Part shown: positions 7,466-24,283 of the stretch, piece after piece | How positions within the stretch are numbered: the stretch's first letter is position 1 | Layout of the letters: the number at the start of each line of letters is the position of its first letter | Source: Lentzea guizhouensis | GTDB lineage: Bacteria; Actinomycetota; Actinomycetes; Mycobacteriales; Pseudonocardiaceae | Assembly (NCBI RefSeq): GCF_001701025.1 | Contig: NZ_CP016793.1 | Location: 1,798,001 to 1,862,000, forward strand | Length of the DNA stretch: 64,000 nt | Direction: 5' to 3' | Made by a program: the position numbers and the translations under genes | The notes under the pieces: generated by a model | Told to the model about the DNA's origin: nothing | Database searches by the model: none | The model's input: only the letters and a program-made list of their open reading frames with translations

Positions 7466-10400
7466 CTACTCGCTCACCTGGCGTCCTGACGGGTGGACCG
7501 GGCACGTCGTGCGGGCCGGGCAGCGGTCGCAGTCCGAGTTCTCCCGCGCGGTGTAGGACGGGCCGAGCACCGACTCCGCCGCGTCCTGCACGACCTCCAG
7601 CCACGCGCGCACGCCCTGTTCGTCGAGCGGGGCCTGGGTGCGTTCGACGGCGCCGGTCTTCTTGTCCTCGCGGGCCACGTACAGCAGCCGCGCGCCGCCC
7701 GGTTCGGTGCCCAGGCCGATGTGGGTGAAGCCGCCCAGCGAGGTCGCCAGCTGGTAGACGGCGAGCTGGGGGTGTTCCTGGCCGGCGTCGCGGGACACCG
7801 GGTTCTTGCCGGTCTTGATGTCCACCACGATCGGGCGGCCGTCGGCGTCGTGTTCGAGGCGGTCGACGCGGCCGCGGACCTGCAGCCAGGGGCCGCCGTC
7901 GCGTTTGGGGACCTCGACGGACATCTCCTCCTCGACCGCGACCTGGGTGAGCTGGCTGCGGGTCATGGTGAGCCAGGCGAGGAACGTGTCGAGCATCTTC
8001 TCGACGCGCATGCGTTCGCGGCGGGAGAACCAGGGGGCGCCCGCGTCGACGGCGGCCCAGGCCTCGTCGAGCTTGACGCGCAGTTGCCGAGCGTCGGCAC
8101 CGGAGGCGGCGGCCTGGGCGAGGGCGTGGACCAGGGTGCCGGTCACCGAGGCGAGCTCGGCCGGGTCCTGGCCGCCGTGGCGTTCGACGACCCAGCGCAG
8201 CGGGCACTTGGTGATCACCTCGATGGTCGAGGGGGTCACGCTGACCTTTTGCTCCTCGGTCCACAGCGGAGCGTCCGACGACACCGCGGCGACGCCGTAC
8301 CAGGACTCCGGGTGGGCGCCGGGGACGTTCGCCTCGGCCAGGCGGGCCAGCTGCGCGGCAGCGCGGGAGCGGCGGTCGGCGGGTTCGGCGTCCGAGCAGA
8401 CCACGCGGCGCAGCTCGCCGACCAGCTCGGCGAGGACCAGGCCGCGCTGGGGGCGGTGGAGCTTGCGCTCGTCCTCGGCGGACGACTCGATCTCGTCCAG
8501 GAAGCGCGACGGCTGTTCGTCCTCGCCGCGGACCGCGCTGATCAGCAGCTTCGACCGGGCCCGGGAGGCGGCGACCAGGAGCAGCCGGCGTTCCTCGGCC
8601 AGGATCGGCGCCACCGCGGACACCGACGGTTCGAGGCCGGCCAGCACGTCCACCATGCGTTCGACGCCCAGCACCGTGCCGCGCAGGCGCAGGTCGGGCC
8701 ACGACCCCTCCTGCACACCGGGCACGGCGACGACCTCCCACTCACGGCCGGCGGCGGCGTGCGCGGTCAGCACGGCCACCGCCTCGCCGATCGGGGCGGA
8801 GGCGGCCAGCGTGTCGCCGACGATCCGTTGCGACTCCAGGTAGTCCGCGAACCCGGCCACCCCGGAGCCCGGCAGCCGGTCGACGTACTTCGCGGCCGAC
8901 TCGAACAACGCCACGATCGCGTCGAGGTCGCGGTCGGCCTGCATGCCGGTGACGCCGCGGCGGGACGACTGCGCGACCCAGCGCTCCTGCAGACCGGTCG
9001 CGGTCCACAGCTCCCACAGCACCGACTCCACCGACGCGCCGCGCTCGATCGTCTTGCGCGCCAACGCCAACAGGTGCGAGATCCGGCGGGCGGGCAGTGA
9101 CTCGACGTCCTCCAGCGCGGCCAGCCGGTCCTCGGTCAGCAGCACCTCGACCAGCAGCTCACCGCTCGGCCGGTCGCCACCGGCGGCCATCTCCAGCCGC
9201 CGCAGCCCACGCCGCAACCGCCGCAGCGCCAACGGATCCGCGCCGCCATAGGAAGAAGACAACAGCATCGCCGCCGTGTCCTCGTCCAGTGAAGAAGGAG
9301 ACGCCGCCGCACGCACCAGGGCCAGCAACGGGCGCACGGACGGTTGTTGCGCCAACGGCAGCTCATCGGACGGCACCGCCACCGGCACGCCCGCCGCGAG
9401 CAACGCCCGCTGCAGCACCGGCAACGACAACGTCGCCGACCGCACGATCACGGCCATCCGCGACCACGGCACCTCGTCGGCCAGGTGCGAGCGCCGCAGC
9501 TGGTCCGCCACCCACGTCGCCTCCTGCGCCGCCGACGCGAGCAGCCGCACCTGCACCGACCCTCGCCGTCGGCCGGCAGCACGCCCGCGTGGGCGACGCA
9601 CCCGGCAGCCGGGCCGCCAGCCTCGCCACCGCGTCCCGCACCTCCGGCGTCATCCGGTGCGACCGCGGCAGCACCACCGTCTCGCCCGGCACGTCCCGCA
9701 GGATCTCCGGATCGGCGCCGCGGAACGTGAAGATCGCCTGGTCCGGGTCACCGGCCAGGACGAACCGCGCCGCACCCGACCCCAGCGACCTGATCAGCGA
9801 GTACTGCATCGGGTCGAGGTGCTGCGCGTCGTCGACCAGCAGGTACCGCACCCGTTGCCGCTCGGCCCACAGCAGGTCCTCGTCCGTGACGAACGCCGCG
9901 TACGCCGCCGACACCAGCTCGGCCGCGTCCAGTGCGGGGGCGAACGCCGTCGCGGAGTCCATCCCCGACAGCAGGTTCACCTCCTCGTACTGCTGCCCGA
10001 ACCGCCCGGCCGCCACCCACTCGTCGCGCCCGTGCTCCTCGCCGAGCTCGATCAGGTCTTCCGGGCCGAGCCCGCGTTCGGCCGCCCGCAGCAGCAGGTC
10101 GCGCAGCTCGTGCGCGAAGCCGGGCAGCTCCAGCGCCGGCCGCAACCGCTCCGGCCAGTGCGCGGCACCGAGCTCGACGTCACCGGCCAGCAGGTCGCGC
10201 ACCATCGCGTCCTGCTCAGGCCCGGACAGCAACCGCGGCGCCGGCTCCTCGAGCCGCACCGCCTGGTTGCGCAGCACCGCGAACGCGTACGAGTGCACGG
10301 TCCGCACCAACGGCTCGCGCACGGTCGAGAACCGCCCGGTCAGCAACCGCGTGATCTCGGCGCGCAACGCCACCGACGCGCGCCGGTTCGCGGTCAGCAC

Positions 10401-10601
10401 CAGCACGTTCTCCGGATCGGCCCCGTGCTCCAGCACGACGTGCGCGGCGAGCTCGGCCAGCAGCGTCGTCTTGCCGGTGCCCGGACCGCCGAGCACCCGG
10501 AGGAAGCCCTCCTGCGTGAAGACCCGCTGGGCGGCCTCGTCCCACCGGGGACGCGGGCGCGTCTCCGGCTTCCGGCGGACCAGCTGGGGTGGAAGTGCCA
10601 C
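7466..10601 (-). pseudogene. adnA: AdnA-like helicase-nuclease subunit, frame broken near 9560-9591
   Basis: Partner of AdnB. The first part (about 335 residues) carries the SF1 helicase with Walker A GGPGTGKTTL, motif II LLVDDAQHLD and motif III GDPDQAIFTFRG. The second part carries UvrD-C, the nuclease motif IVVDIKTGK and a C-terminal Cys cluster (CDRCPARTTC) expected to bind Fe-S. The frame changes twice. Adding one base to the CCC run at about 9591 and one to the GGG run at about 9560 (minus-strand sense) gives a continuous GVLPADGEGSVQV join and about 1040 residues, the family length. Sequence error is therefore as likely as true loss. The start is GTG. Confidence 0.85.
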
Positions 10602-10739: not shown

Positions 10740-12861
10740 TCACCGGGGTGGGAGGTTCTCCAGGAAGTCGCCGGCCGGCAGTGCCCCGCTGAAGTGGTCA
10801 CCGGTCGCGAAGTCCGCGCCCGCGTCCCGCCACCACGCGGCCAGCTCGGCGCTGTCGATCCCGTCGACCGCCACCGACACGCCCTGCTCCCGCAGCAACG
10901 GCAGCAGCGCCGCCACGTACTGCGACCGGCTCGCCACCAGGCCGCGCGCCACGCGCACCGCCTGCACCGGCAGGTCGGCGGCGAGCAGGCCGAAGTCGAG
11001 CGGCCCCAGCCCGAAGTCGTCGACCGCGGTCAGGACGCCCATGCGGGCCAGCACCGCGACGTTGTCCGCGGCGTCGGCCATCGGCAGCACGGACCCCGGC
11101 ACGCTGATCATCAGCTGCCCTGGGGCCAGCCCGACCTGGTCGAGCACCCGCACGACCCGCGTCACGAGGTCGGCGTCGGCCGACTGGTGCGCGGTGAGCC
11201 GCAGGGCGAGCGCGCGTTCGAACTGCCCGCGCTGCCGCCACCACACCGACTGGCCACCGGCCACCCGCAGCATCCACTCGCCGAGCGGCAGGATCAGGCC
11301 GGTCTGCTCGGCCAGCGCCGCGCACCGGTCGTGGCCCAGCGCCTCGGACTCCGGCCGCTCCCAGTGCATCGCGGCCTCGACCCCGCTGACCGCGCCGCTC
11401 GCCAGCTCGACGACCGGCCGGTACCGCACGGTGATCTCGCCGTTCTCCCACGCGCTCGGCATCTCGACGGCCAGCGCGTCGTCGCGGCGTTCCTCGGCGT
11501 CCTGACCGGCGTGGAACAGCTCCCACTGCCCGCGCCTGCCGCGCTTGGCCCGGCGCAACGCCCGTTCCGCCGAGCGCAGCACGTCGAGCGGTTCCACCTC
11601 GCCGCCGGGCCGGTGCACGACACCGGCGCTGACCGACACCGCCAGCCCGTGACCGTCCACATAGGTCGGTTCGAGCATCAGGTCCTCGTTGATGCCCTTC
11701 ATGATCGTGTCGATGGGCGGGGTGGTCGCCGTGTTCTCGACCAGCACGCCGAACTCGTCCCCGCCGAACCGGGCGATCATGACCTTCTCGTCCGCCAGCA
11801 GCGCCTTGAGCCGCTGCGTGACGTGCTGCAGCATCCGTTCGACGACCCGGCCGCCGAAGCTGTCGCGCAGCATGCCGAACGCGTCGAGGTCGAGGTGGAA
11901 GACCGTGATGCCGTGCTCGGGATCGCCCTTGCGCAGCGCGATCTCCAGCTGCGTGGTGAAGAACTGCCGGTTCGGCAGCCCGGTCAGCGGGTCGTGCAGC
12001 GACTGGCGCTTCAGCTCGTTCTGCAGCAGCTCCAGCTCGGTGCCGTCCTCGACGACCACGACGAAGTGGCTCGGCTCGTCGTTCGCGCCGCGCAGCAGCG
12101 ACGCCGCCAGCGTGACCCGTGCGACCTCGCCGTCCTTGCGCCGCAACCGCTGCGACTGCCGCACGCGGTCGGTGGTGCCGGCGGCCAGCTCGTCCATCGC
12201 CTCGCTCAGCATCTCGGCGAAGCCAGGCTCGACGAGGTCGAACAGCGGCACGCCGGTGAGCTCGTCCGCGGTGCGCTCGAGGATGTGGCCGATGGCCGCG
12301 TTCGCCCTGATCAGGGTGCCGTCCAGGTCGACGATCAGCACGCCGTTGGTGGACGACGTGACGACCTCGTTGAACCGGGCCTCGCTCTCCTTGAGGTTCC
12401 CAGTTCGCGTCACGGACGGCCTTGAGCAACGACTTCTGCAGGCTTTCTTGCTGCGCCAGCACCGACTCGGTGTTCGCGCCGGTGAACCCGGTGCCGAGCG
12501 CGCCCATCGCGAGCGCCACCCGTTCCGCGTAGCGCGCGACGGGCTGGAACTCCGGCAGCGCGAGCAGTCCCTTGCCGAGGACCTCGGTGGTGCACCGCAG
12601 CCCGAGCTTGCCCAGGTGACCGAGCGCGGCCAGGTCGGCGCCGACGGCCTCGACCGGTGCGGTGGCGAACGGTTCCGCGTGCAGCATCGAGCACAACGCG
12701 TCGAGCCGCTCACCCAGCTCCCGGTCGAGATCTTCACTGCCCAGCGGAATCGCGACCGTGCCGAGCAGGCGGTATGACCATTTGCGGGCAAGGGTCAGCC
12801 GCGCTCTCGCATTGTCCTGGGGCGAGGGCGTGCGGTCGGGCATTCGACTCGGGTTGGGCAT
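10740..12861 (-). pseudogene. GGDEF-EAL protein, cassette copy 1, one frame break at ~12397
   Basis: Cytoplasmic c-di-GMP signalling protein resembling the PAS-GGDEF-EAL architecture of Streptomyces RmdA. An N-terminal alpha-helical region (about 150 aa) is followed by a PAS domain (TNGVLIVDLDGTLIRANAAI), a GGDEF domain with the canonical motif ARFGGDEF, and an EAL domain. No RxxD inhibitory site precedes GGDEF. The EAL signature is degenerate (VEAAMHW for ExLxR; DDFGLG kept), so cyclase activity is more likely than phosphodiesterase activity. One extra base in the AA at 12397-12398 (plus strand TT) breaks the frame; removing it gives RDANWDLKESEARF, matching RDAQWDQRQSEAKF of copy 2. Confidence 0.85.
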
Positions 12862-12962
12862 TCGTGGCCGCCTCGCAATGGCTCCTGAGGTCCGGCAGTT
12901 TACCCACGCACGGTTGGTCTCACTTCAACCGGCGGCGTGAATCTTCACTCTATCGGTGTTCC

Positions 12963-13772
12963 CTACGGTTTACGACCGACGCCGGCGAAGGCGATCCTGT
13001 TGACGGCCGGATCATCGGAGATGTCACCGGGGCCGGTGGGACGCCATTCGGCGAACTTGACGAGTCCCGGTTCGACCAGTTCGAAATCACCGAAGAAGGC
13101 TTCGATCTCGTCGCGGTCGCGGTAGGTGACGTCGCCGCCGCCCGCCTTGCTCATCCGGTCCGTCACGGCCCGCGCCTCGTCGTTGACGTGGTCGCCGGCC
13201 ATGTGCGAGATCGCGAGGTAGCTCCCGCTCGGCAGTGCCTCCCGGTAGCGCTTGAGCAGGCCCTGCGGGTCGGCCTCGGTGGGCACCCAGTGGACCATGA
13301 ACAGCAGCAGCAACCCGATCGGCTCGTCGAAGTCCAGCAGCCGGTTCACCTCGCCGCTGGACAGGATGCTCTCCGGGTCGCGCATGTCCGCCTGCAGCAC
13401 TCCGACGCGGTCGTCACCTGCGACGATGAGCTCACCGTGCGCCACGGCCACGGGGTCGCGGTCCACGTAGACGACGCGGCAGTCGGGGGCCGTCTGGGCG
13501 ACCTCGTGCACGTTCGCCACGGTCGGGATGCCGGAGCCGATGTCGAGGAACTGGCGCACGCCCTGCTCGGTCATGAACCGCACCGCGCGGCGCAGGAAGG
13601 CCCGGTTGAGCCGGGCGGCGCTGCGCGAGTGCGGCATCATCTGCTCGGCCTTCTCGCCCATCAGGCGGTCGACCGCGAAGTTGTGCGCGCCGCCGAGGAG
13701 GTAGTCGTACACCCGTGCGGCACTGGGCACGGAAACGTCCACGCTCTGTGGAATCCAGCTCTCGTCGGCCAC
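12963..13772 (-). CDS. SAM-dependent methyltransferase, DUF574 type, cassette copy 1
   Basis: Actinobacterial S-adenosyl methyltransferase of the DUF574/Methyltransf_19 family. It has the family N-terminus (ARVYDYLLGGAHNFAVDR) and the SAM-binding loop FLDIGSGIPTVANVHE, followed by VYVDRDPVAV. Substrates of the family are unknown. The GTG start (VADESW) was chosen by comparison with copy 2 and an AGAAGAGG ribosome-binding site; in-frame GTGs lie up to 3 codons upstream. It precedes the GGDEF-EAL gene on the same strand by about 100 bp and diverges from the P450 gene. Confidence 0.9.
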   Translation of the reverse strand: MADESWIPQSVDVSVPSAARVYDYLLGGAHNFAVDRLMGEKAEQMMPHSRSAARLNRAFLRRAVRFMTEQGVRQFLDIGSGIPTVANVHEVAQTAPDCRVVYVDRDPVAVAHGELIVAGDDRVGVLQADMRDPESILSSGEVNRLLDFDEPIGLLLLFMVHWVPTEADPQGLLKRYREALPSGSYLAISHMAGDHVNDEARAVTDRMSKAGGGDVTYRDRDEIEAFFGDFELVEPGLVKFAEWRPTGPGDISDDPAVNRIAFAGVGRKP

Positions 13773-13856
13773 CACGACCACCCTCTTCTGGTTGCGGACG
13801 CACTAGCTTAGTCATGCACAAAGCGACTACGACTAGGCCGCTCGTGTGAACGCGCG

Positions 13857-13907
13857 CCACCCGTTTGGGCACTGTCGTTGTCGACCGAACGACTCCTAAG
13901 GTGGTCC
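13857..13907 (+). promoter_or_regulatory. Conserved cassette promoter block, copy 1
   Basis: This 51-bp stretch between the divergent methyltransferase and P450 genes matches 19407-19457 at 43 of 51 positions, far better conserved than the surrounding intergenic DNA. It begins CCACCCGTT and ends GGTGGTCC, giving outer inverted ends. It contains TAAGGT (13897-13902), a fit to the TAnnnT -10 hexamer for the P450 gene. A shared regulator site plus promoter is inferred. Confidence 0.55.
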
Positions 13908-13931
13908 ATCCTTTCCACGCGAGGAGCGATG

Positions 13932-15245
13932 ATGTCCGTCCCGGTGGCGCCCGGCAGGCTGCCATTTCTCGGGCACACGTTGCCAATGCTCAGGAAAAGA
14001 TTCGCATTCACCGCGAATTTACGAGGTCAGGGCGATCTCGTCGAAGTGCACCTCGGCCCGATGCGGGCCTATTTCGTGACCAGTCCCGAGTTGATGCACC
14101 AGGTGCTGGTCACCGATGCGCCGAAGTTCCACAAAGGCCGGATGTACGACAAGTTCCGCCCGTTCGTCGGCAACGGGCTCGCGGTGTCGAGCGGGACGTT
14201 CCACCTGCGCCAGCGGCGGATGGTGCAGCCGGCGTTCCACCGCGACCGCATCGCCGGCTACGCCGCCATCATGGTCCGCGCGGCGACCGACCTGGTGCGG
14301 GAGTGGCGGCCGGGCGAGGTGCGCCGGCTCGAGGCCGACATGCAGGGGCTCGCCGTCACGATCGTCGGTGAGGCCTTGTTCTCCACCGAGATCGGCAAAC
14401 GCGCGATCGACGAGGCCCGCCGGTCCGTGTTCGTGATCATCAAGAACGGCATCCTGCGCGCGCTCTCGCCGGGGTTCGTCGAGAAGCTGCCGATCCCGGC
14501 CAACCGCGAGTTCGACGAGGCCATCGCCAGGATGCGCGCGATCGTGCACGAGGTCATCGCGAGCAGGCGGGACGACGACACCGACCACGGCGACCTGCTG
14601 TCGACGCTGCTGGCCGCCAGGGACCCCGAGACCGGCGAGCCGATGACCGAGGACGAGGTCTTCGACGAGGTCATCACGCTGCTCACCGCGGGCATCGAGA
14701 CCACGGCGCTGGCGCTGGCCTGGATCTTCCACGAGATCGCCGCCAACCCCGGCGTGCAGGCGCGGGTGCTGGCGGAGGTCGACGAGGTCCTGGCGGGCCG
14801 GCCGGTGACGATCGACGACGTGCCGAGGCTCGCCTACCTGGGCCAGGTCGCGCAGGAGGTGCTGCGCAAGTACCCGCTCTGGCTCGTCATGCGCCGCACG
14901 GCCGAGGAGGTCGAGCTCGGCGGCGCACGCCTCGCACCGGGCACCGAGGTGATCCTCAGCCCGCACACCATGCACCACGACCCGGCGCACTTCCCGGACC
15001 CCGAGCGCTTCGACCCCGACCGCTGGACCCCCGAACGCGCGAAGCGGCTGCCGAAGGGCGCGTTCGTCCCGTTCGGCGGCGGCATCCACCAGTGCATCGG
15101 AAACCACTTCGCGCTGACCGAGATCGTCACCGTGGTGGCGACGGTCTGCGCGCACCACCGGCTGGTCCCCGACCGGCCGGTGCGCACGAAGTTCACCAAC
15201 GCGGCCTACCCCTACGACCTGATGATGAAGGTCGTCCCCCGCTAG
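13932..15245 (+). CDS. Cytochrome P450, cassette copy 1
   Basis: Haem monooxygenase of 437 aa. It has the I-helix oxygen-activation motif AGIETT (about residue 253), the K-helix ExxR (EVLR, about 308) and the Cys-ligand loop FGGGIHQCIG (about 381-390). It resembles actinobacterial P450s annotated as pentalenene-oxygenase-like; the substrate is not deducible. GAGGAG ends 5 nt before the chosen ATG, and an adjacent ATG one codon earlier is too close to it. It is co-transcribed with the secreted hydrolase 17 bp downstream. Redox partners are not encoded nearby. Confidence 0.93.
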   Translation: MSVPVAPGRLPFLGHTLPMLRKRFAFTANLRGQGDLVEVHLGPMRAYFVTSPELMHQVLVTDAPKFHKGRMYDKFRPFVGNGLAVSSGTFHLRQRRMVQPAFHRDRIAGYAAIMVRAATDLVREWRPGEVRRLEADMQGLAVTIVGEALFSTEIGKRAIDEARRSVFVIIKNGILRALSPGFVEKLPIPANREFDEAIARMRAIVHEVIASRRDDDTDHGDLLSTLLAARDPETGEPMTEDEVFDEVITLLTAGIETTALALAWIFHEIAANPGVQARVLAEVDEVLAGRPVTIDDVPRLAYLGQVAQEVLRKYPLWLVMRRTAEEVELGGARLAPGTEVILSPHTMHHDPAHFPDPERFDPDRWTPERAKRLPKGAFVPFGGGIHQCIGNHFALTEIVTVVATVCAHHRLVPDRPVRTKFTNAAYPYDLMMKVVPR

Positions 15246-15262
15246 CTGGAGGTTGTTCCCCC

Positions 15263-16264
15263 ATGCGTTTCCGCCGGCTCTGTGCCGCCGTGCTGCTCGC
15301 CGCGTTCATCCCGGTCCCCGCACCGGCGAACGCCGCCCAGAACACCACCTGTGAGGACGTGTACACCCCCGTCCAGTTCGGCCTCGTCAAGCAGACGATG
15401 TACGGCCGGCTGTGCGTGCCGCGGGGCGCCGGCACCGTCCAGGTGCTCGTCCCCGGTGGCACCTACACCAGCGGCTACTGGGACATCCCGGTGGACGGCG
15501 AGCTCCGCTCCGTCACCCGCGCGATGAACAAGGCGGGCATCGCCACCATGGCGGTGGACCGGATCGGCACCGGCAAGAGCACCAAGCCGCTCAGCATCCT
15601 GGTGGACGTCCCGAACCAGGCCGAGGCGGTGCACCAGGTGATCCAGAGCCTGCGCCCGCGGTTCTCGAAGGTCTTAGTGGGCGGTCACTCCATCGGTTCC
15701 GCCATCGCGATGGCCGAGGCGGGCAGGTACCGCGACGTCGACGGCGTGCTCGTCACCGGCATGACCCACCAGTGGGACTACGTCAGGGCCGTCCCCGCGC
15801 TGACCAACCTGATCCCGGCCCTGCTCGACCCCAAGCTGAGCCTGCGCGGCATCGACGTCGGCTACCTGACCACCGCGCCGGGCACGCGCTACAAGATGTT
15901 CCACTCGCCCGGCCCGAACGTCGCGAGCGTCATCAACCTCGACGAGTCCACAAAGGACGTCGTGTCGGCGAGCGAGTTCGTGACCACCGCGCTGATGTCC
16001 AACATCGTGCTCCCCGCGAGCGCCGGCATCACCGCTCCGGTGCTGACCGTGCAGACCTCGGCCGACTACTTCTGCGGCACCCCACCGCTCGGCGCCGACT
16101 GCTCGTCGGCCGCGGCACTGGTCCGTTCCGAGAAGCCGTTCTACCCGCGGGCGCCGCGGCTGGACGGGTACGTGGTGAACGGGTACGGGCACGTGTTCAA
16201 CTTCGACACCAAGGGCGCTGACCGCTACCACGCGGCTCTCGTCGCGTGGCAGCGCAGCATCTGA
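15263..16264 (+). CDS. Secreted alpha/beta hydrolase, cassette copy 1
   Basis: 333-aa exported hydrolase. A Sec signal peptide (MRFRRLCAAVLLAAFIPVP, Ala-rich cleavage region APANAA) precedes an alpha/beta-hydrolase fold with the nucleophile elbow GGHSIGSA and a probable catalytic His near the end (NGYGHVFNF). Several Cys may form disulfides outside the cell. TGGAGGT lies before the ATG, and the gene starts 17 bp after the P450 stop, so the two form an operon. The pairing suggests an exported product or ester linked to the P450 reaction; this is inference. Confidence 0.88.
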   Translation: MRFRRLCAAVLLAAFIPVPAPANAAQNTTCEDVYTPVQFGLVKQTMYGRLCVPRGAGTVQVLVPGGTYTSGYWDIPVDGELRSVTRAMNKAGIATMAVDRIGTGKSTKPLSILVDVPNQAEAVHQVIQSLRPRFSKVLVGGHSIGSAIAMAEAGRYRDVDGVLVTGMTHQWDYVRAVPALTNLIPALLDPKLSLRGIDVGYLTTAPGTRYKMFHSPGPNVASVINLDESTKDVVSASEFVTTALMSNIVLPASAGITAPVLTVQTSADYFCGTPPLGADCSSAAALVRSEKPFYPRAPRLDGYVVNGYGHVFNFDTKGADRYHAALVAWQRSI

Positions 16265-16278
16265 CAGCTACCGGCGGG

Positions 16279-16304
16279 GGTGGCGCGGTGAGTGCCGCGC
16301 CACC
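16279..16304. terminator. Hairpin between convergent hydrolase 1 and GGDEF-EAL 2
   Basis: A 10-bp perfect stem (GGTGGCGCGG / CCGCGCCACC) with a 6-nt loop lies in the 44-bp gap between convergent stop codons. There is no U-tract. G+C-rich hairpins of this kind commonly act as terminators in actinobacteria. Confidence 0.6.
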
Positions 16305-16308
16305 TCAG

Positions 16309-18389
16309 CTAGAGCTTCTGCAGGAACTCGCCCGCGTCACGCGGGACACCGAAGTGGGCGCCGATCGCGAGGTCGGCGCCCGCTTCCGTCCACCACCGGG
16401 CCTGCTCGGCGGTCTCGACGCCGTCCACGCAGATGTTCACGCCCAGCTCGTGCACCGCCGGGATCAGCGCCACCGAGCGGGGATCCATGCGGTGCACCAG
16501 TTCCTCCGGCACGCACACGGACACGATCGGCAGCTCCGAGAGCCAGGCCAGGTCGCGCGGACCGAGGCCGAAGTCCTCCAGCGCGATCCGCACGCCCCTG
16601 GCCGCGAGCGTGCTGAGGTTCTCCGCCGCGCCGGCCACGCCGAGGACGCCGACCGGCATGCACAGCGTCAGGCGCTCGTGCGGCAGGCCGGTCTCCTCCA
16701 CGACCTTCGCCACCCGTGACACCAGGTCCGCGTCGGTCGCCTGGTGGCGGGTGAGGCGGACGCCGAACTGCGCGTCGAGCTCACCTCGTTGCCGCCACCA
16801 CTGGGCCTGGCCGGCCGCGATCCTGATCAGCCACTCGCCCATCGGCAGGATGAGTCCGGTCTGGTCGGCGAGCTCGGCGCAGCGGTCGGAGAGGTCCCAG
16901 TGCAGCACGGCTTCCACGCCCGCGAGCTCACCGGTCGCGAGGACGCGGACCGGCCGGTAGCAGACGCCGATGTCGCCCTGTTCCCACGCTCCCGGCATCA
17001 CGACGGCCAGTGCGTGGTCGCGGCGGCGTTCGGTGTCCTGGTTGCCGTGGAACAACTCCCACTGGCCACGCTGGTCCTTCTTGGCCTGCCGCAGCGCGAG
17101 GTCGGCCATGCGCAGCAGCTCGACCGGGTCGACGTCGGGCGAGGGCCGGTGGACGACGCCCGCGCTCACCGACACCGAGAGGCCGTGGTCGTCCACGAAC
17201 ACCGGTTCGGCCAGGTCGGTGTTGATCGCGGCCATCGTCGTCGCGACGTCCGGCGTCAGGAAGGTGTTCTCCACGACGATGCCGAACTCGTCGCCGTCGA
17301 ACCGCGCGACCATCGCCTGCTCGCGCGACATCAACGCGCGCAGCCTGCGGGCCACGTGCTGCAGCAGCCTCTCCCCGACGCCGCCGCCGAGGCTGTTGCA
17401 CACCAGGCCGAACGCGTCGAGGTCCAGGTGGAACACGGTCACGCCGAACTCGGGGTCGGCGCGGCGCAGCGCGGTCTCCAGGTGCGTGGTGAAGAACTGC
17501 CGGTTCGGCAGGCCGGTCAGCACGTCGTGCAGCGACTGCCGGCGCAGTTCTCCTTGCAGCAGCGCGAGTTCCGTGTCGTCGTCGGCGACCACGAGCACGT
17601 GGCTCGGCTTGCCGTCGCCGTCGCGCAGCAACGACGCCGTCATCGTCACCTTGGCCAGGTCGTCCTCACCGCGCAGCAGGTGCAGCGGTTCGCGTTCGAA
17701 CTCGGCCCGCTCGGCGAGCACGCGTTCGACCATCTCGCGGAACACGACGATCGAGCTCGGCGCGACGAACTCCATCAGCCGGGCGCCCGGTTCCGGACGC
17801 TGCCGAGGATGCCGCCGATGGCCTCGTTGGCCCACACCACCTTCCCGTCGAGACCGACGATCAGGATGCCGTTGGTCGACGAGATCGCGATGCCCGCGAA
17901 CTTGGCCTCGCTCTGCCGCTGGTCCCACTGCGCGTCACGGGCGGCCTTGAGCAGCGAGCGCTGCATGCTCTCCTGCTGGTCGAGGATCGCGCGGGCGCGC
18001 GCCGTGGTGAAGCCGCACGTCAGCGCACCGATCCCGCCGACCACGCGCACCACGTGCTGCTTGCTCGCGCTGAACTCCTCCAAGCCCAGCAAGCCCTTCC
18101 CGAGCACGTCGACCGTGCGCTTGAGACCGGGTTCGTTGACGTAGCCGAGAGCGACGAGTCGCTCGCCCACCTCCTCGAACGGAGCAGGGTCGAACGGCTC
18201 GTTGTGCAACGCCGCGCACAACGCGTCGAGCTGGCCGGCCAGTTCGGCGTCCAGCTCGTCCCGTCTCAGCGCGACCATCACAACGCTGCTGAGCAGGTAG
18301 CTCCACTTGCGCGACAAGGCTTCCCGCGCGCGGACGGCGGCGGTGTCCGCGGGTGGAGCGGCATCGGGTCTTCGGCTCGGATTCGTCAT
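16309..18389 (-). pseudogene. GGDEF-EAL protein, cassette copy 2, one frame break at ~17795
   Basis: Paralogue of the protein at 10740-12861 with the same helical N-terminus, PAS (TNGILIVGLDGKVVWANEAI), GGDEF and EAL domains. The cyclase motif is altered to ARFDGDEF (first Gly replaced by Asp), and the EAL signature is degenerate (VEAVLHWD), so enzymatic activity is doubtful. The frame breaks once in the PAS domain. Adding one C to the CC at 17793-17798 restores GSVPEPGARLMEFV and continuity with copy 1. It could be sequence error, decay of a redundant copy, or phase variation. Confidence 0.85.
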
Positions 18390-18492
18390 TCCCGTTGCCC
18401 TGTATGGGGTGCAGAGTGTCCGGCAGTCTACCTACCGCGAGTCGGCGCCCACTGCGCCAACAGTGTGAAACCTCCACCACGGACGGGTGGTT

Positions 18493-19311
18493 TTAGGCCT
18501 TACGACCTACACCAGCGTACAGGAACATGTTCATGGACGCCTCGGCGGCGATGTCACCGGGACCGTCCGGACGCCACTCACCACACCCGACCAAACCGGG
18601 TTCCACCAGCTCGAAGCCGTCGAACAGCGCGCTGACCTGGGCGTGGTCGCGCATGTGCATCTGGTCGGCGCTGCTGCTGCGGTTCACCACGTCGGCGGCC
18701 TTGTCGACGTTGTCGCCGATCTGGTCCTTGGCGACGTGCGTCATCACGACGAAGCTCCCGGCGGGCAGGGCGTCGCGGTAGCCGGCGACGAGCTTCCGCG
18801 GGTCGTCGGAGTCGGGCACCCAGTGCAGCATGAGCAGCATCAACAGCCCGATCGGCTCGTCGAAGCGCAGCAGCCTGCCGACCTCCTCACTCGCCAGCAC
18901 GGCCTCCGGATCGCGCATGTCGGCGTGCACGATGGCGGCGTTTTCGTTGTGAGACAACATGAGTTGACTGTGCGCGACGGCGACCGGGTCCTTGTCGACG
19001 TAGACGACACGCGCGGCGGGGTCGCGGTGCTGCGCCACCTCGTGCACGTTCGCGACGGTCGGGATGCCGGAACCGATGTCGAGGAACTGCCGAACTCCCT
19101 GGTCCATCAGGTAGTTCACCGCGCGACCGAGGAACCGCCGGTTGAGCCGCGCCACGCTGGGCAGGCCCGGCACCAGCTTCTCGATCTGCGATCCGACCGC
19201 GCGGTCGGCGGCGAAGTTGTGGGCGCCGCCGAGGATGTAGTCGTAGACGCGGGCCATGCTCGGGACGTCCATGTCGATGCCGAGCGGCACCCAGTCCTGG
19301 GTTTCTGCCAC
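18493..19311 (-). CDS. SAM-dependent methyltransferase, DUF574 type, cassette copy 2
   Basis: Paralogue of the methyltransferase at 12963-13772. It keeps ARVYDYILGGAHNFAADR and the SAM loop FLDIGSGIPTVANVHE, then VYVDKDPVAVAHS. The GTG start (VAETQDW) follows an AAGAGGT ribosome-binding site; a GTG three codons upstream is the alternative. It lies upstream of GGDEF-EAL copy 2 and diverges from P450 copy 2, repeating the order and orientation of copy 1. Confidence 0.9.
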   Translation of the reverse strand: MAETQDWVPLGIDMDVPSMARVYDYILGGAHNFAADRAVGSQIEKLVPGLPSVARLNRRFLGRAVNYLMDQGVRQFLDIGSGIPTVANVHEVAQHRDPAARVVYVDKDPVAVAHSQLMLSHNENAAIVHADMRDPEAVLASEEVGRLLRFDEPIGLLMLLMLHWVPDSDDPRKLVAGYRDALPAGSFVVMTHVAKDQIGDNVDKAADVVNRSSSADQMHMRDHAQVSALFDGFELVEPGLVGCGEWRPDGPGDIAAEASMNMFLYAGVGRKA

Positions 19312-19406
19312 GGTGAACACCTCTTCGGTTCGTGGCGGTTCGGGGATGACGCACGAGCTTAGTCACCCGAGCGCGCACGGCGTTGAACCATCGGAGTGAC
19401 ACCGAA

Positions 19407-19457
19407 CCACCCGTTCAGGCACTGTCGTCTTCGCCCAAACGGCTCCTAGGGTGGTCC
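19407..19457 (+). promoter_or_regulatory. Conserved cassette promoter block, copy 2
   Basis: Counterpart of 13857-13907 (43 of 51 bases identical, no gaps). The -10-like TAGGGT is at 19447-19452, and the CCACC/GGTGG outer ends are kept. Mismatches are scattered single substitutions. Confidence 0.55.
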
Positions 19458-19491
19458 GTCCCCCCGTTCGGCTGATCCGTTGGAGTTGCCG

Positions 19492-20796
19492 ATGCCCGTC
19501 CCGGTGGCACCACGCCGCTGGCCGTTGCTCGGGCACACCCCCGCGATGCTCGCCCGGCGCGCCGGGTTCACCGACGCGTTGTACGAGCACGGCGACGTGG
19601 TGCGCCTCGACCTCGGTCCGCTGCGCGCGTACTTCGTCACCGATCCCGCGCTCACGCACGAGGTTCTCGTCACGCAGGGCGCGAAGTTCCGCAAAGGCGC
19701 CATGTTCGACAAGTTCCAGCCGTACCTGGGAACCGGGCTGCTGCTGTCGAACGGCGAGCACCACCTGCGGCAACGGCGGATGATGCAGCCCGCGTTCCAC
19801 CGCGACCGGATGGACGCCTACGCCACCACGATGGTCCGCGCGGCCACGGCGATGGCGGAGTCGTGGCAGCCCGGCGAGGTCCGGACCATCGAGAACGACA
19901 TGCAGGAACTCGCGGTCACCATCGTCGGCGAGGCGCTTTTCTCGACGGAGATGGGACAACGTGCGGTCGCTGAGGTCCGCCGGTCGATCTTCACGGTCAT
20001 CCAGCAGGGCATGGTCCGCGCGCTGTCGCCGTCGTTCGTCGAAAAGCTGCCGCTGCCGGGCAACCGGGAGTTCGACGCGGCCATCGCGCGGATGAAGGCC
20101 GTGGTGCTGCAGGTGATCGAGAGCTGGCGGGCGGACGGCACCGACCACGGTGACGTGCTGTCGATGTTGTTGCTGGCGCAGGACGGCGGCATCGGCATGT
20201 CCGACCAGCAGACCTACGACGAGGTCCTGACGTTGCTGACCGCGGGCATCGAGACGACCGCGATCGCGTTGGCGTGGGCGTTGTACGAGGTCGGCCGCAA
20301 CCCGGAGATCGAACGGCGATTACACGAGGAGGTCGACGCGCTGGGCGGCCCCGCCACGTTCGCCGACCTGCCGCGCCTGCCCTACGCAGCGCAGATCGTG
20401 CAGGAAACCCTGCGCCACTACCCGATCTGGTTCGTGATGCGCCGAACGCTCGTCCCGGTCGACCTCGGTCCCGTGACCCTCCCGGCCGGCGCCGAGGTGA
20501 TCGTCAGCCCGCACGCCCTGCACCACGACCCGCGTTCCTACCCCGCCCCGGCGCGCTTCGACCCGTCCCGCTGGACGCCGTCGTTCACCGCGGACCTGCC
20601 GCGCGGCGCGTTCGTCCCGTTCGGCGGCGGCAACCGCCAGTGTCTCGGCAACACCTTCGCCCAGACCGAGATCGTGCTGACCCTCGCGACCGTCGCCGCC
20701 CGCTGGCGGCTGGTCCCCACCCGTCCGGCGCGCGTGAAGTTCACGTCCGCCCCCTATCCCGACGGCCTGCTCATGAAAGCCGTCCCCCGCAACTAG
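19492..20796 (+). CDS. Cytochrome P450, cassette copy 2
   Basis: 434-aa paralogue of the P450 at 13932. It has I-helix AGIETT (about residue 251), ExxR (ETLR) and Cys-ligand loop FGGGNRQCLG (about 376-386). The loop has Arg where copy 1 has His, and the Phe/Trp-rich region after ExxR differs, so the substrates may have diverged. The ATG follows TTGGAG; an in-frame ATG four codons upstream is possible. The hydrolase copy 2 starts 17 bp after the stop, the same spacing as in copy 1. Confidence 0.92.
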   Translation: MPVPVAPRRWPLLGHTPAMLARRAGFTDALYEHGDVVRLDLGPLRAYFVTDPALTHEVLVTQGAKFRKGAMFDKFQPYLGTGLLLSNGEHHLRQRRMMQPAFHRDRMDAYATTMVRAATAMAESWQPGEVRTIENDMQELAVTIVGEALFSTEMGQRAVAEVRRSIFTVIQQGMVRALSPSFVEKLPLPGNREFDAAIARMKAVVLQVIESWRADGTDHGDVLSMLLLAQDGGIGMSDQQTYDEVLTLLTAGIETTAIALAWALYEVGRNPEIERRLHEEVDALGGPATFADLPRLPYAAQIVQETLRHYPIWFVMRRTLVPVDLGPVTLPAGAEVIVSPHALHHDPRSYPAPARFDPSRWTPSFTADLPRGAFVPFGGGNRQCLGNTFAQTEIVLTLATVAARWRLVPTRPARVKFTSAPYPDGLLMKAVPRN

Positions 20797-20813
20797 TTGG
20801 AGGTAGTTCCCCC

Positions 20814-21803
20814 ATGCGTTTCCGCCGGTTGTGCGCCGCGGCTCTGCTCGCCACCGGAACACTGCTGTTCCCCACCCCCGCCTCGGCCGCCGTGACGTGC
20901 CAGGACGTGAGCTTCCCCGTCCGCGTCGGCCTGACCCCGTTGATCACCAGCCAGGAGACGATGGCCGGCCGCCTCTGCACCCCCGGCCGCGCCACCACCG
21001 TGCAGGTCCTGATCCCCGGCGGCACCTACGACCGCTCCTACTGGGACGTCGGCTTCGAACCGTCCACCCACTCCTTCACGAAGGCCCAGAACGCCGCCGG
21101 CTTCGCCACCCTCGCGATCGACCGCCTGGGCACCGGCCGCAGCTCCAAACCGCTGAGCGCCCTCGTCACCGCCTCCACCCAGGCGAGCGCCGTCCACCAG
21201 GTCATCCAGGCGCTGAAACCCCGCTTCGGCAAGGTGATCGTCGGCGGCCACTCCATCGGCGCGGCCATGGCCATCATCGAGGCGGCCACCTACGGCGACG
21301 TCGACGGCGTCCTCGTCACCGGCTTCACCCACAAGATGAACTACATCACCGTGGTCCCGGTGCTCGCCAACATGGTCCCGGCGGGCCTGGACGTCGGCTA
21401 CCTCACCACCATGCCGAACACCCGCTACAACTCGTTCCACAAACCGGGCCCGCTGATCCAGGGCGCGATCTCGTTCGACGAGAGGACGAAGTCCGTCTTC
21501 GCCGCCACCGAGGCCGTCGACACGATCCTGCTCAACACCGTCATCATCCCGGTGTCCCGGCGGATCGACGTCCCGGTGATGATCGCCGTCGGCAACGACA
21601 CGCACTTCTGCAGCTCCGGCGTGCCGCTGATGGGCAGCGACTGCTCCTCACCCGCCGCCCTGGCCGCGGACGAGGGCACGTTCTTCCCGGCGGTGCCGCG
21701 CCTGGACACCTTCATCCTCAACGGGTACGGCCACTCCATCAACTACGCCCCGAACGCCCCGCAGTACCACGCGGCCGTCTCCTCCTGGGCCGCCCGGATC
21801 TGA
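20814..21803 (+). CDS. Secreted alpha/beta hydrolase, cassette copy 2
   Basis: 329-aa paralogue of the hydrolase at 15263. It has an almost identical start (MRFRRLCAA), signal peptide to TPASAA, nucleophile elbow GGHSIGAA and C-terminal NGYGHSINY. The ribosome-binding site TTGGAGGT and the CCCCC run before the ATG are shared with copy 1. Copy 2 lacks about six residues present in copy 1 (DPKLSL in the copy 1 segment PALLDPKLSLRGIDVGYL). Export and ester or peptide hydrolysis are inferred from fold only. Confidence 0.88.
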   Translation: MRFRRLCAAALLATGTLLFPTPASAAVTCQDVSFPVRVGLTPLITSQETMAGRLCTPGRATTVQVLIPGGTYDRSYWDVGFEPSTHSFTKAQNAAGFATLAIDRLGTGRSSKPLSALVTASTQASAVHQVIQALKPRFGKVIVGGHSIGAAMAIIEAATYGDVDGVLVTGFTHKMNYITVVPVLANMVPAGLDVGYLTTMPNTRYNSFHKPGPLIQGAISFDERTKSVFAATEAVDTILLNTVIIPVSRRIDVPVMIAVGNDTHFCSSGVPLMGSDCSSPAALAADEGTFFPAVPRLDTFILNGYGHSINYAPNAPQYHAAVSSWAARI

Positions 21804-21827: not shown

Positions 21828-22145
21828 ATGGACGAAGAGATCCACGAGCGGATCCGCGACTTCATCAAGGCCATCCCGCGCGGACGCGTCGCCACCTACG
21901 GCGACATCGCAGATCTCGCCAAGGCCCCGTCGCCACGGCTGGTCGGCCGCATCCTCAACGAGGACGGGCACGACCTGCCGTGGCAACGCGTGCTGAAGGC
22001 GGACGGCACCTGTGCTCCGCACCTGCGGGAGACGCAGCTGCAGATGCTGCACGAGGAGGGGGTGCCGAACCTCGACGGGAAGGTGGACCTGCGGGAGTAC
22101 CGGTGGGAGGACGCCCGGAAGGAAGAGCTGCCAGGCCTCTGGTAG
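21828..22145 (+). CDS. Alkyltransferase-like (ATL) DNA-binding protein
   Basis: 105-aa MGMT-fold protein. The helix-turn-helix and active-site region are present (GRVATYGDIA, LVGRILN), but the alkyl-acceptor motif PCHRV reads PWQRV, with Trp in place of the catalytic Cys. This is typical of ATL proteins, which bind O6-alkylguanine and hand lesions to nucleotide-excision repair without repairing them. A TAGAAT hexamer ends 6 nt before the ATG, so the mRNA is probably leaderless. From memory the orthologue is Rv3204, near adnA in M. tuberculosis. Confidence 0.88.
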   Translation: MDEEIHERIRDFIKAIPRGRVATYGDIADLAKAPSPRLVGRILNEDGHDLPWQRVLKADGTCAPHLRETQLQMLHEEGVPNLDGKVDLREYRWEDARKEELPGLW

Positions 22146-22235
22146 CAGGCTGACGCAGGGGTCCCCTTCGCTGTTGGCTCCCCCGCGACCCACGCTGCTC
22201 AGCAGGTCTGACCGTTCCGGTAGGACGAGGCCGGG

Positions 22236-22881
22236 TCACGCCGACCTCCTGACCTCGCCCAAACCCTCGTAGTACCGCCGCACCAACGCCTCGGCGATCA
22301 GCGGGTGCGCTCCGACCGGCGCGGCCACCACGTCGGCCCCGCACCCGCTCACCAGGTCGTGGAACACCCCCGGCGCCAGCAACCACGAGGCGACGGCCAC
22401 CCGCCGTCCGCGCCCGGCGACGGCGGCCACCACGTCCCCGATCCGCGGCGAAGCGGTGGCCGCGTACCCGACCGCCTCCGCGCCCAGCAGTCCCGCCGCC
22501 GCCGCACGTCCGCCAACGCCGCACGTCCGAAGACCCGGCGGCCGCCAGCACCACCGCATCTCCGCGCCGAACCCCGGCCTCGCGCAACCGGTCCCGCACC
22601 GCCGGCACCGCATCCACGCCCAGCGGCGGCGTCAGCACCACGTCAGGCCGCGAGCCGATCTGCTCGGGGATGTCCACCCGCACGTGGTACCCGGCAGCCA
22701 GGAACGCCGGCACGACAACACACGGTCCGTCCACAACGGACCGGACGTCCGGCTGGACGACGTCCGCGTAGGCGACCTCGACCGGCACGTCCACCGACTC
22801 CCGCACCAGCGCGGCGATGGACGAGCAGACCGACAACCCCGACGCGGAACGCGTGCCGTGGAACGCCAAGACCAGCTTCAT
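22236..22881 (-). pseudogene. CbiX/SirB-like chelatase, frame broken near 22502-22520
   Basis: Sirohydrochlorin chelatase-like protein (CbiX fold), probably inserting Fe or Co for sirohaem, the NirB cofactor. The first part keeps the N-terminal metal-site motif LVLAFHGTRS and VVPAFLAAGYHVRVD. The second part (ATASPRIGDVV, VASWLLAPGVFHDLV) is in another frame. Adding one G at each of two CGG sites (about 22520 and 22502) gives DVRALADVRAAAAGLL and one continuous product of about 215 aa. Its ATG overlaps the HemD-fusion stop as ATGA. It is the last gene of the nitrogen operon. Confidence 0.8.
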
Positions 22882-23972
22882 GCAGGCTCCATCGCAAGTC
22901 GGTACCCACGCTTCACCACGGTGCACACCATCTGCGGCGCCCCCAACGCCGTCCGCAACCGCCCGATCGCGGTCTCCACGGCGTGCTCCTCACCACCGGA
23001 AGGCAATGCCGCCAACAGGTCCTGGCGCGACACCACCCGCCCGCGCGCCGCGACCAGGGTCCGCAGCACCGCCATCGGCGCCGGTGCGACGGGACGCAGC
23101 TCGCCGTCGACCACCACGGCCTGTGCCCGCATCTCCAGGTCCCGCGACGCGATTCGCAACCGGGTGGCCCGCGCGGGCAGCTCGACCGCCAGCTCGCGGA
23201 CCATCGACCCGATCCGCGACCGGGCCGGCTGCACGACCGGGATGCCGGCCGCCACCAGCGGTCCTGCGGTGATCGCGCCCACACCGACCACCAGGACGTT
23301 GCGGCGCAACGCCTCCACCAGAGCCGGACGGCGGTCGCCTGCTGTCCGCAGCACCGAGGACGCCGCCGGAGCGCTCGTGAACGTCAAGGCGTCCACCTGG
23401 CCCGCCAGCACCGCCTCGACCAGCCGCTCCAGCGGGGCCGGGTCGACCGGTGGTTCCCAGCGGTAGACCGGGATCTCCACCACGTCGGCGCCCGCGGCCT
23501 GCAGCGAACCGACGAAGTCCGGGAGTGGTTCGCCGTGCAGCTGGACGGCGACGCGCTTGCCGGCGACGCCCATGCGCAGGAGGTACTGCAGGAGCTCTGC
23601 GTTCGACTCCGACGACGGTGACCACGTCTCGGTCAGGCCCGCCGCTCGGACGGCACCCTTCGCCTTCGGGCCGCGCGGGAGCACCACCGCTGACGACAAC
23701 CCGCGCTGCAGTCGTGCACCCAGGCCCCAGCCCTCAGCTGCCTCGAACCAGCCGCGGAAACCGATCGCGGTGGTGGCCACGACCACGTCGACCGGGGCCG
23801 ACAGCAGTTCGGTCGTCGCGGCCAGCAGGGAGGTGTCATCGGGCAGCGGCACGATGCGCAGCGCGGGGCCGTGCACCACCACGGCGCCCTTGCGCTCCAG
23901 CAGGGCGATCAGCTCGTCGGCACGGCGGGCGGCGGTGACGCCGATGGTGAAGCCGGCCAGGGGGCCGGTCAC
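22878..23972 (-). CDS. Uroporphyrinogen-III synthase fused to a winged-helix regulator domain
   Basis: 364-aa fusion. Residues ~1-255 form a HemD-type uroporphyrinogen-III synthase (FTIGVTAARRADEL; LTFTSAPAASSVL). Residues ~270-360 form an OmpR/PhoB-type winged helix (RTLVAARGRVVSRQDLL; VKRGYRLAMEP). The likely role is to link sirohaem supply to transcriptional control of nitrite reduction. The GTG start overlaps the nirD stop (GTGA), and its stop overlaps the cbiX start. From memory M. tuberculosis carries the same pair as Rv0260c/Rv0259c near nirBD. Confidence 0.88.
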   Translation of the reverse strand: MTGPLAGFTIGVTAARRADELIALLERKGAVVVHGPALRIVPLPDDTSLLAATTELLSAPVDVVVATTAIGFRGWFEAAEGWGLGARLQRGLSSAVVLPRGPKAKGAVRAAGLTETWSPSSESNAELLQYLLRMGVAGKRVAVQLHGEPLPDFVGSLQAAGADVVEIPVYRWEPPVDPAPLERLVEAVLAGQVDALTFTSAPAASSVLRTAGDRRPALVEALRRNVLVVGVGAITAGPLVAAGIPVVQPARSRIGSMVRELAVELPARATRLRIASRDLEMRAQAVVVDGELRPVAPAPMAVLRTLVAARGRVVSRQDLLAALPSGGEEHAVETAIGRLRTALGAPQMVCTVVKRGYRLAMEPA

Positions 23973-24283
23973 GTCAGCTCCACGACGCCGTCACGCACCC
24001 GCACCTCGTGCACGGCGACCGACACCTCCGGCGAGTCGAGGCACTTGCCGGTGGCCAGCTCGAAGGCCTGCTTGTAGACCGGGGAGACGACCACCGGGAC
24101 GCCGCCGCGGTCGCCCAGGATGCCGCGGGAGAGCACGGCGGCGCCGCTGAACGGGTCGATGTTGTCCAGGGCGTGCAGGGTGCCGTCGGCGGTGAGGAAC
24201 ACGGCCACCTGCGAGCCGTCGGGGAGCAGGGCGGCGACACCCTGCTCCGGGCGCAGCAGGGCGAGGTCACAGACCACGGTCAT
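23969..24283 (-). CDS. nirD: Nitrite reductase small subunit NirD
   Basis: 104-aa Rieske-fold partner of NirB in assimilatory NAD(P)H nitrite reductase. It keeps the fold motifs (QVAVFLTADGTLHALDNIDPF; VPVVVSPVYKQAFELATGKC) but lacks the CxH/CxxH cluster ligands, as usual for NirD. The ATG was chosen because it overlaps the nirB TGA (ATGA). Confidence 0.92.
   Translation of the reverse strand: MTVVCDLALLRPEQGVAALLPDGSQVAVFLTADGTLHALDNIDPFSGAAVLSRGILGDRGGVPVVVSPVYKQAFELATGKCLDSPEVSVAVHEVRVRDGVVELT

Follow-up and report, generated by a model that had tools for sequence, protein, structure and literature searches.

A tandemly duplicated four-gene cassette of Lentzea guizhouensis, with a PF04672 methyltransferase, a P450, a StnA-like secreted hydrolase and a degenerate GGDEF-EAL protein, as a probable functional unit

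In a window of 64,000 nucleotides (nt) of the genome of Lentzea guizhouensis (contig NZ_CP016793.1, positions 1,798,001 to 1,862,000, whose coordinates are counted here from its first letter), we describe two tandem copies of a cassette of four genes encoding a GGDEF-EAL protein (GE), a PF04672 methyltransferase (MT), a cytochrome P450 and a secreted alpha/beta hydrolase related to the streptonigrin methylesterase StnA. The host is a soil bacterium, and the nearest relatives of its cassettes are found in Lentzea and other Pseudonocardiaceae. We are highly confident that the four genes work as one unit, which is co-inherited and probably co-regulated: their families are found together in other genera and in more than one layout, have a putative operator in common and show concordant clades for their two copies. 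As to the function, the most economical reading of the evidence is that a metabolite is methylated at a carboxyl group, oxidised, and then demethylated by a secreted enzyme, which we put forward tentatively, as a plausible rather than a probable role.

The two blocks are direct repeats at 10740-16264 and 16309-21803 with the same four genes in the same order and on the same strands, as a first-pass annotation of this DNA had already noticed, and the repeat comparison agrees here with the reading of open reading frames (ORFs) and Pfam domains. They are offset by 5,533-5,563 nt, are 70-85% identical in DNA over ungapped stretches (repeat families D1-D12), and each runs GE(-), MT(-), P450(+), hydrolase(+), with protein identities between copy 1 and copy 2 of 54% for GE, 55% for MT, 61% for P450 and 55% for the hydrolase. 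The direct-repeat comparison rules out a chance resemblance, because the paralogues match from end to end and related genomes have the tandem as well. Also as first described, 17 nt separate the P450 from the hydrolase gene in both copies (15245/15263 and 20796/20814), and the secreted proteins have near-identical signal-peptide starts, MRFRRLCAAVLLAA and MRFRRLCAAALLAT. Pfam assigns PAS, GGDEF and EAL domains to GE, PF04672 to MT, PF00067 to the P450 and Abhydrolase_6 to the hydrolase among the window ORFs, with the PAS domain detected only in GE copy 1 because copy 2 is cut by its own frameshift. Some gene limits had to be corrected: GE1 starts at 12861 instead of 12791 and GE2 reaches 18389, which adds an N-terminal domain of about 130 amino acids, and the likelier P450 starts are the ATG codons at 13929 (P450-1) and 19492 (P450-2).

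The distribution of the cassette hydrolase is patchy, since at E 1e-20 it was found in 67 of 150 genomes of the family, host included, while a phylum sample of 396 genomes gave two at E 1e-40 (one being the window's own) and 12 at E 1e-10; these searches scored at most 14 candidates per genome in the family set and at most five in each phylum-sample search. Eight of the 13 listed phylum-sample sites outside the host genome were inspected and had no MT, P450 or GE nearby. Among relatives, the MT|P450-hydrolase arrangement appears in 64/64 loci, a proportion that is biased upward because these loci, drawn from the 80 top-ranking stretches among 157 that were confirmed, were picked by means of the cassette hydrolases themselves. 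Together with the window they contain 89 cassettes, of which 69 are complete and in the standard layout, 17 are without an adjacent GE, two are without the P450, and one keeps the P450 and hydrolase only. A wider survey covered 118 hydrolases of at least 700 nt in the loci retrieved, a part of the family-search matches, with many genomes of the 64-locus set recurring among the other loci; an MT lies within 3 kb in 91 of them, MT and P450 in 75, MT but no P450 in 16, no MT in 27, and all four genes in 49, although in tandem arrays a GE within 6 kb may belong to the neighbouring copy. Besides the standard layout, GE can be found beyond MT, downstream of the hydrolase or upstream on the hydrolase strand, and the P450 can share the strand of MT while GE lies past the hydrolase. 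This recurrence of the same families in several orders points to a shared job rather than to frozen linkage. As separate observations, a 19-kb stretch (L072:337-18956), in which three P450 and five MT genes accompany several hydrolase genes, is an amplified version of the cassette, and in Umezawaea endophytica a second P450, 42% identical to P450-1, follows the hydrolase (L188:8174-9394).

The MT|P450 intergenic regions contain a conserved palindromic element with the consensus ACCCGATCGGGCACTGTC, which we consider a putative operator specific to the cassette. Behind it, at a distance that is also conserved, come CCGAACGG and a -10-like CCTA(G/T)NGTG. An exact copy of the core 10-mer of the palindrome, CCCGATCGGG, is present in 23 of the 43 outgroup and window intergenics, where no 10-mer exceeded three in 20 shuffles, and a matrix trained on 87 MT|P450 intergenics scores above 15 in 86 of those same 87, against a maximum of 6.3 in shuffled intergenics. 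In other loci, partly from the same genomes, a score above 15 upstream of MT was found in 47/68 cases with a divergent P450, in 5/19 with a divergent hydrolase and in 0/17 with neither; elsewhere in the loci, scores above 6.3 amounted to 174/483, the best being 19. The window copies are the imperfect palindromes CCCGTTTGGG and CCCGTTCAGG, and the pattern CCACCCGNNNNGGCACTGTC is exact in the 10-Mb host genome only at 13857-13876 and 19407-19426, with 26 further matches at one or two mismatches compared with 18 for the reversed control. A wider regulon was looked for in ten relatives and rejected: all six exact operator matches among those listed fall within cassette loci. Matches with up to two mismatches outnumber the reversed control in these genomes. 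No transcription factor is encoded among the cassette genes.

These layouts and this element bear on the alternative that two separate pairs, a general MT-GE one and a P450-hydrolase one, use a common promoter region and travel together through linkage alone, without belonging to one pathway, which we regard as improbable. The host genome does contain three lone MT-GE pairs (L139:6731-9772, L140:6833-9661 and L141:6677-9323) with no P450 or hydrolase in the retrieved flanks, where a Pfam scan of 10 ORFs revealed no partner that the pairs have in common, and many MT|P450-hydrolase loci have no GE. But the families stay together across rearranged layouts, MT and hydrolase remain associated even in the 16 of 118 cases that have no P450, and the cassette-specific candidate operator sits between MT and P450.

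The history of the copies is also that of a unit in most respects. That the four pairs of paralogues diverged together is borne out in so far as copy 1 and copy 2 separate in the trees of all four genes, which were made by a quick method from the 69 four-gene cassettes of standard layout out of the 89, using the C-terminal part of GE, with support from the Shimodaira-Hasegawa-like approximate likelihood ratio test (SH-aLRT) only and no bootstraps. The copy 2 clade has SH-aLRT values of 100 for GE, MT and P450 and 98 for the hydrolase, while the copy 1 clade has 99 for MT, 99 for P450 and 100 for the hydrolase when L160 is included, and 99 for GE with L160 excluded. Neither rarity of the four families together elsewhere nor discordant duplication times or origins, either of which would have refuted the first-pass proposal, turned up, with one reservation: a single Lentzea clade is recovered for GE (99) and the hydrolase (95) and not for MT and P450, although Lentzea monophyly is not rejected for either gene (approximately unbiased test, p 0.465 and 0.432). 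The concordant copy clades in the four trees fit one tandem duplication of the whole unit, which would have occurred near the base of Lentzea. A recent duplication is ruled out by the 54-61% identity of the paralogues together with the presence of a second cassette, at least in part, at 22 of the 23 Lentzea-clade loci (L148-L170), with L160 having one. A third cassette is found at L164, L165 and L168, and the middle copies at L164:6472-6717 and L165:5979-7993 have kept MT and hydrolase and lost all or most of the P450. Five outgroup clades are common to all four gene trees, in the two-cassette U. endophytica all four genes of L188 fall in the same clade, separate from those of its other cassette (L173), and the ratio of nonsynonymous to synonymous substitution rates is 0.07-0.51 in five strain pairs. 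Two records in these trees may be misnamed: Nocardia sp. NRRL S-836 (L158) groups within Lentzea, and Rhodococcus rhodnii NRRL B-16535 (L184) beside Kibdelosporangium aridum.

MT1 and MT2 match PF04672 with 294.7 and 301.7 bits against a gathering score of 26, and this family has 14 matches in the host genome. The top structural match, 2qe6, was solved with S-adenosylmethionine (SAM), and both sequence relatives with a solved structure are recorded as proteins of unknown function. Beyond the own family, the six best chains ordered by VIA-align Z are all PPM1/LCMT-1 carboxyl methyltransferases (Z 19.0-20.5, 3.2-3.5 A over 235-241 residues). Mycobacterial ML2640/Rv0731c come next (Z 17.8-18.6), and at Z 16-17.4 there are NodS, TYW4, another PPM1 entry and others; in the own order of Foldseek, PPM1 comes at rank 38. 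The leucine carboxyl methyltransferase fold (PPM1/LCMT-1, TYW4) provides the best structural neighbours of MT outside its Pfam family, a likeness by fold alone at 7-11% identity, and MT is not a sequence member of that group, given that Pfam at E 1e-3 returns PF04672 only. The P450 matches PF00067 and has the Cys haem-ligand motif in 86/87 homologues; against the NCBIfam terpene oxidase equivalogs, P450-1 stays below the cut-offs, with 370 of 700 bits for albaflavenone and 339 of 800 for pentalenene oxygenase.

The streptonigrin pathway includes a cryptic carboxyl methylation, in which the partner methyltransferase StnF2 reportedly adds the methyl ester. StnA, encoded in a 48-gene antibiotic cluster, is the dedicated alpha/beta hydrolase that removes it, with the triad Ser185-Asp308-His349 (PMC5225493). 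H1 has the two StnA sequences as its sole matches among PDB sequences at E 1e-3 (E 3.6e-45), and this triad aligns with S143, D268 and H310 of the cassette hydrolase, which do not vary among the 15 homologues aligned. Of 87 hydrolases, 83 have a hydrophobic leader and 79 an AxA motif, as read by a simple script and not by a signal-peptide predictor, and most homologues of MT, of the P450 and of the hydrolase have their active-site motifs. By homology and triad, the hydrolase is a relative of the StnA-type methylesterases, with a predicted esterase activity. Unlike the streptonigrin cluster, the conserved unit here has four genes only: the PF04672 MT, the P450, the StnA-like hydrolase and the pseudo-GGDEF-EAL protein.

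The same parts list would serve for uptake and detoxification, where the secreted esterase would cleave an environmental ester, the P450 oxidise the freed lipophile, MT cap it and GE sense it; we consider this unlikely, if still the most serious competitor. It agrees with the P450 being nearest to terpenoid oxidases, though below their cut-offs, with the patchy occurrence in 67/150 family genomes, and with SulE, listed with StnA among homologues, which detoxifies sulfonylurea herbicides by removing their ester group (PMC10356948). An EamA-family transporter in the flanks of 13/64 loci, seven of Amycolatopsis and six of Saccharothrix and hence two lineages, could also be accommodated, but two queries found none in the other 51 loci, Lentzea included; at the loci that have it, it may be an exporter or a chance neighbour. 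At L191 a MarR-family gene adjoins this transporter. Moreover, an MT-hydrolase pair with opposite predicted activities, kept even where the P450 is missing, suits a writer and an eraser better than a catabolic chain.

The first-pass suggestion of c-di-GMP-type (cyclic di-GMP) signalling, if meant as enzymatic turnover, is not supported, since GE is devoid of key catalytic residues of both domains. We counted residues in 104 distinct GE sequences, near-duplicates included, from which matches were excluded if they contained an internal stop, did not exceed 1 kb or scored no more than 150 bits. In the GGDEF domain, the FK Lys and the guanine-binding Asn, which we take to be active half-site residues of diguanylate cyclases, are each found in 0/82 cassette GE proteins and in 6/7 control paralogues of the host, and the GG[DE]EF signature is incomplete, with the first Gly in 20/82 (5/7 in controls) and the second Gly, Asp and Glu in 71, 77 and 81 of 82, respectively; copy 1 reads GGDEF and copy 2 DGDEF. 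In the EAL domain, the residues that we assume to be catalytic in c-di-GMP phosphodiesterases are almost gone (Asn 1/81, Lys 0/81, Gln 0/81, first Glu of EGVE 10/81, all 7/7 in controls), and the Glu of the EAL motif itself is retained in 75/82. Among 22 divergent GE proteins, EAL Asn and Lys occur in none and Gln in 0/20. With these residues lost, c-di-GMP turnover by GE is unlikely. An active module in which GE makes or degrades c-di-GMP and thereby controls the enzymes could still appeal to domain scores above the Pfam cut-offs, to the GGDEF letters of copy 1, to the second Gly, Asp and Glu of GGDEF and the EAL Glu retained in most homologues, and to the basal relative L139, beside an MT of the host genome, which keeps nearly all of the inspected catalytic residues; against the absence of the others in cassette and divergent proteins alike, we find such a module very improbable. 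As for the N-domain, a profile search of the PDB reached only E 0.43 at best, and its likeness to the RsbR/stressosome N-terminal domain (3zta, 2bnl) stays within the range expected of helical bundles, with the difference that in GE it precedes PAS-GGDEF-EAL.

In the carboxyl methylation reading that we prefer, MT would methylate the carboxylate of a probably lipophilic metabolite, the P450 would oxidise the resulting methyl ester, and the secreted StnA-like esterase would then strip off the methyl group in the extracellular space, the only place where the free acid would appear. GE, with its RsbR-like helical domain, PAS, pseudo-GGDEF and pseudo-EAL, would respond to a ligand as a receptor or scaffold and either adjust MT or report on the product. 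The metabolite scaffold would be made elsewhere; a cross-genus scaffold gene beside it was not found in 41 outgroup loci (L171-L211), where the 12 listed ORF clusters are mostly of one genus and the largest, of 12 loci in several genera, has a representative resembling an out-of-frame reading; two of the listed clusters are the EamA-family transporters mentioned above. The earlier proposal of one system that makes or senses a small molecule stands as regards the evolutionary unit, while the making or sensing can only be suggested.

Actinobacteria have comparable arrangements in the conservons CvnA-D, multi-gene and multi-copy signalling units which, in the available text, include a CvnE P450 in some cases and do not name an MT, an esterase or a GGDEF-EAL protein among their parts (PMC13343842). 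The cassette is likewise multi-gene, multi-copy and actinobacterial, but a Pfam scan of its ORFs found no histidine kinase, roadblock, CvnC-type or GTPase genes, the conservon core. Among the open-literature matches listed there was no description of the four-gene cassette, in searches that did not address PF04672 alone and mostly did not cover subscription papers. It is conceivable, though speculative and rather doubtful, that we are dealing with a new class of signalling cassette, with a carboxyl methyl ester as a mask that is written inside the cell and erased outside it by the secreted esterase, an oxidised acid that is released in this way and read back by a receptor combining degenerate GGDEF-EAL domains and a globin-like sensor, a dedicated operator, and diverging copies that may make different signals.

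Table 1. Features of the two cassettes in window coordinates, and examples of flanking transporters at loci of relatives.
Feature	Position	Strand	Description
GE1	10740..12861	-	Helical N-domain, PAS, degenerate GGDEF and degenerate EAL; single-base frameshift near 12401
MT1	12963..13781	-	PF04672 (Methyltransf_19, formerly DUF574) SAM methyltransferase
Operator 1 (putative)	13857..13876	+	CCACCCGTTTGGGCACTGTC, divergent MT1/P450-1 intergenic
Candidate -10 TAAGGT, P450-1 promoter	13897..13902	+	Conserved spacing from operator; presumed assignment
P450-1	13929..15245	+	Haem motif FVPFGGGIHQCIG; start moved to ATG 13929
H1	15263..16264	+	Secreted StnA-like alpha/beta hydrolase, signal peptide; triad S143/D268/H310
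GE2	16309..18389	-	GE1 paralogue, both domains degenerate; one frameshift near 17778-17799
MT2	18493..19320	-	PF04672 methyltransferase paralogue
Operator 2 (putative)	19407..19426	+	CCACCCGTTCAGGCACTGTC, MT2/P450-2 intergenic
Candidate -10 TAGGGT, P450-2 promoter	19447..19452	+	Conserved columns; presumed assignment
P450-2	19492..20796	+	Start moved to ATG 19492
H2	20814..21803	+	Secreted StnA-like alpha/beta hydrolase paralogue
EamA-family transporters	L195:1581-2555, L180:8757-9785		Examples beside the cassette

Both GE genes of the window are split by one single-base shift relative to their relatives, in which all 73 of the 73 junctions that could be paired by script are in frame, and this rules out a programmed frameshift; the related locus L162 has a frame break within the N-domain of its own GE1. 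Nearby, a gene for a UvrD-like helicase and PDDEXK nuclease at 7466-10601, presumably AdnAB-like, is split in two frames near 9560, probably by an assembly indel, and a CbiX-like gene at 21955-22926, followed by a reductase at 24280-26736 that we take to be NirB-like, has an apparently broken frame. Because the relatives' GE genes are in frame and these two neighbours are also disrupted, assembly indels are probably a likelier cause of the GE frameshifts than real mutations.

In summary, four loosely annotated genes become one testable unit, and carboxyl methylation becomes a functional hypothesis for PF04672, a family that is present in many copies in this genome and whose solved members are of unknown function. 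The MT-linked GGDEF-EAL proteins form a series from the nearly intact L139 to the cassette proteins, degenerate in both domains, and the putative palindromic operator offers through its specificity a handle for finding the regulator. If the proposal is true and the product is a diffusible acid, the cassette would represent a new class of signal or metabolite in the Pseudonocardiaceae.

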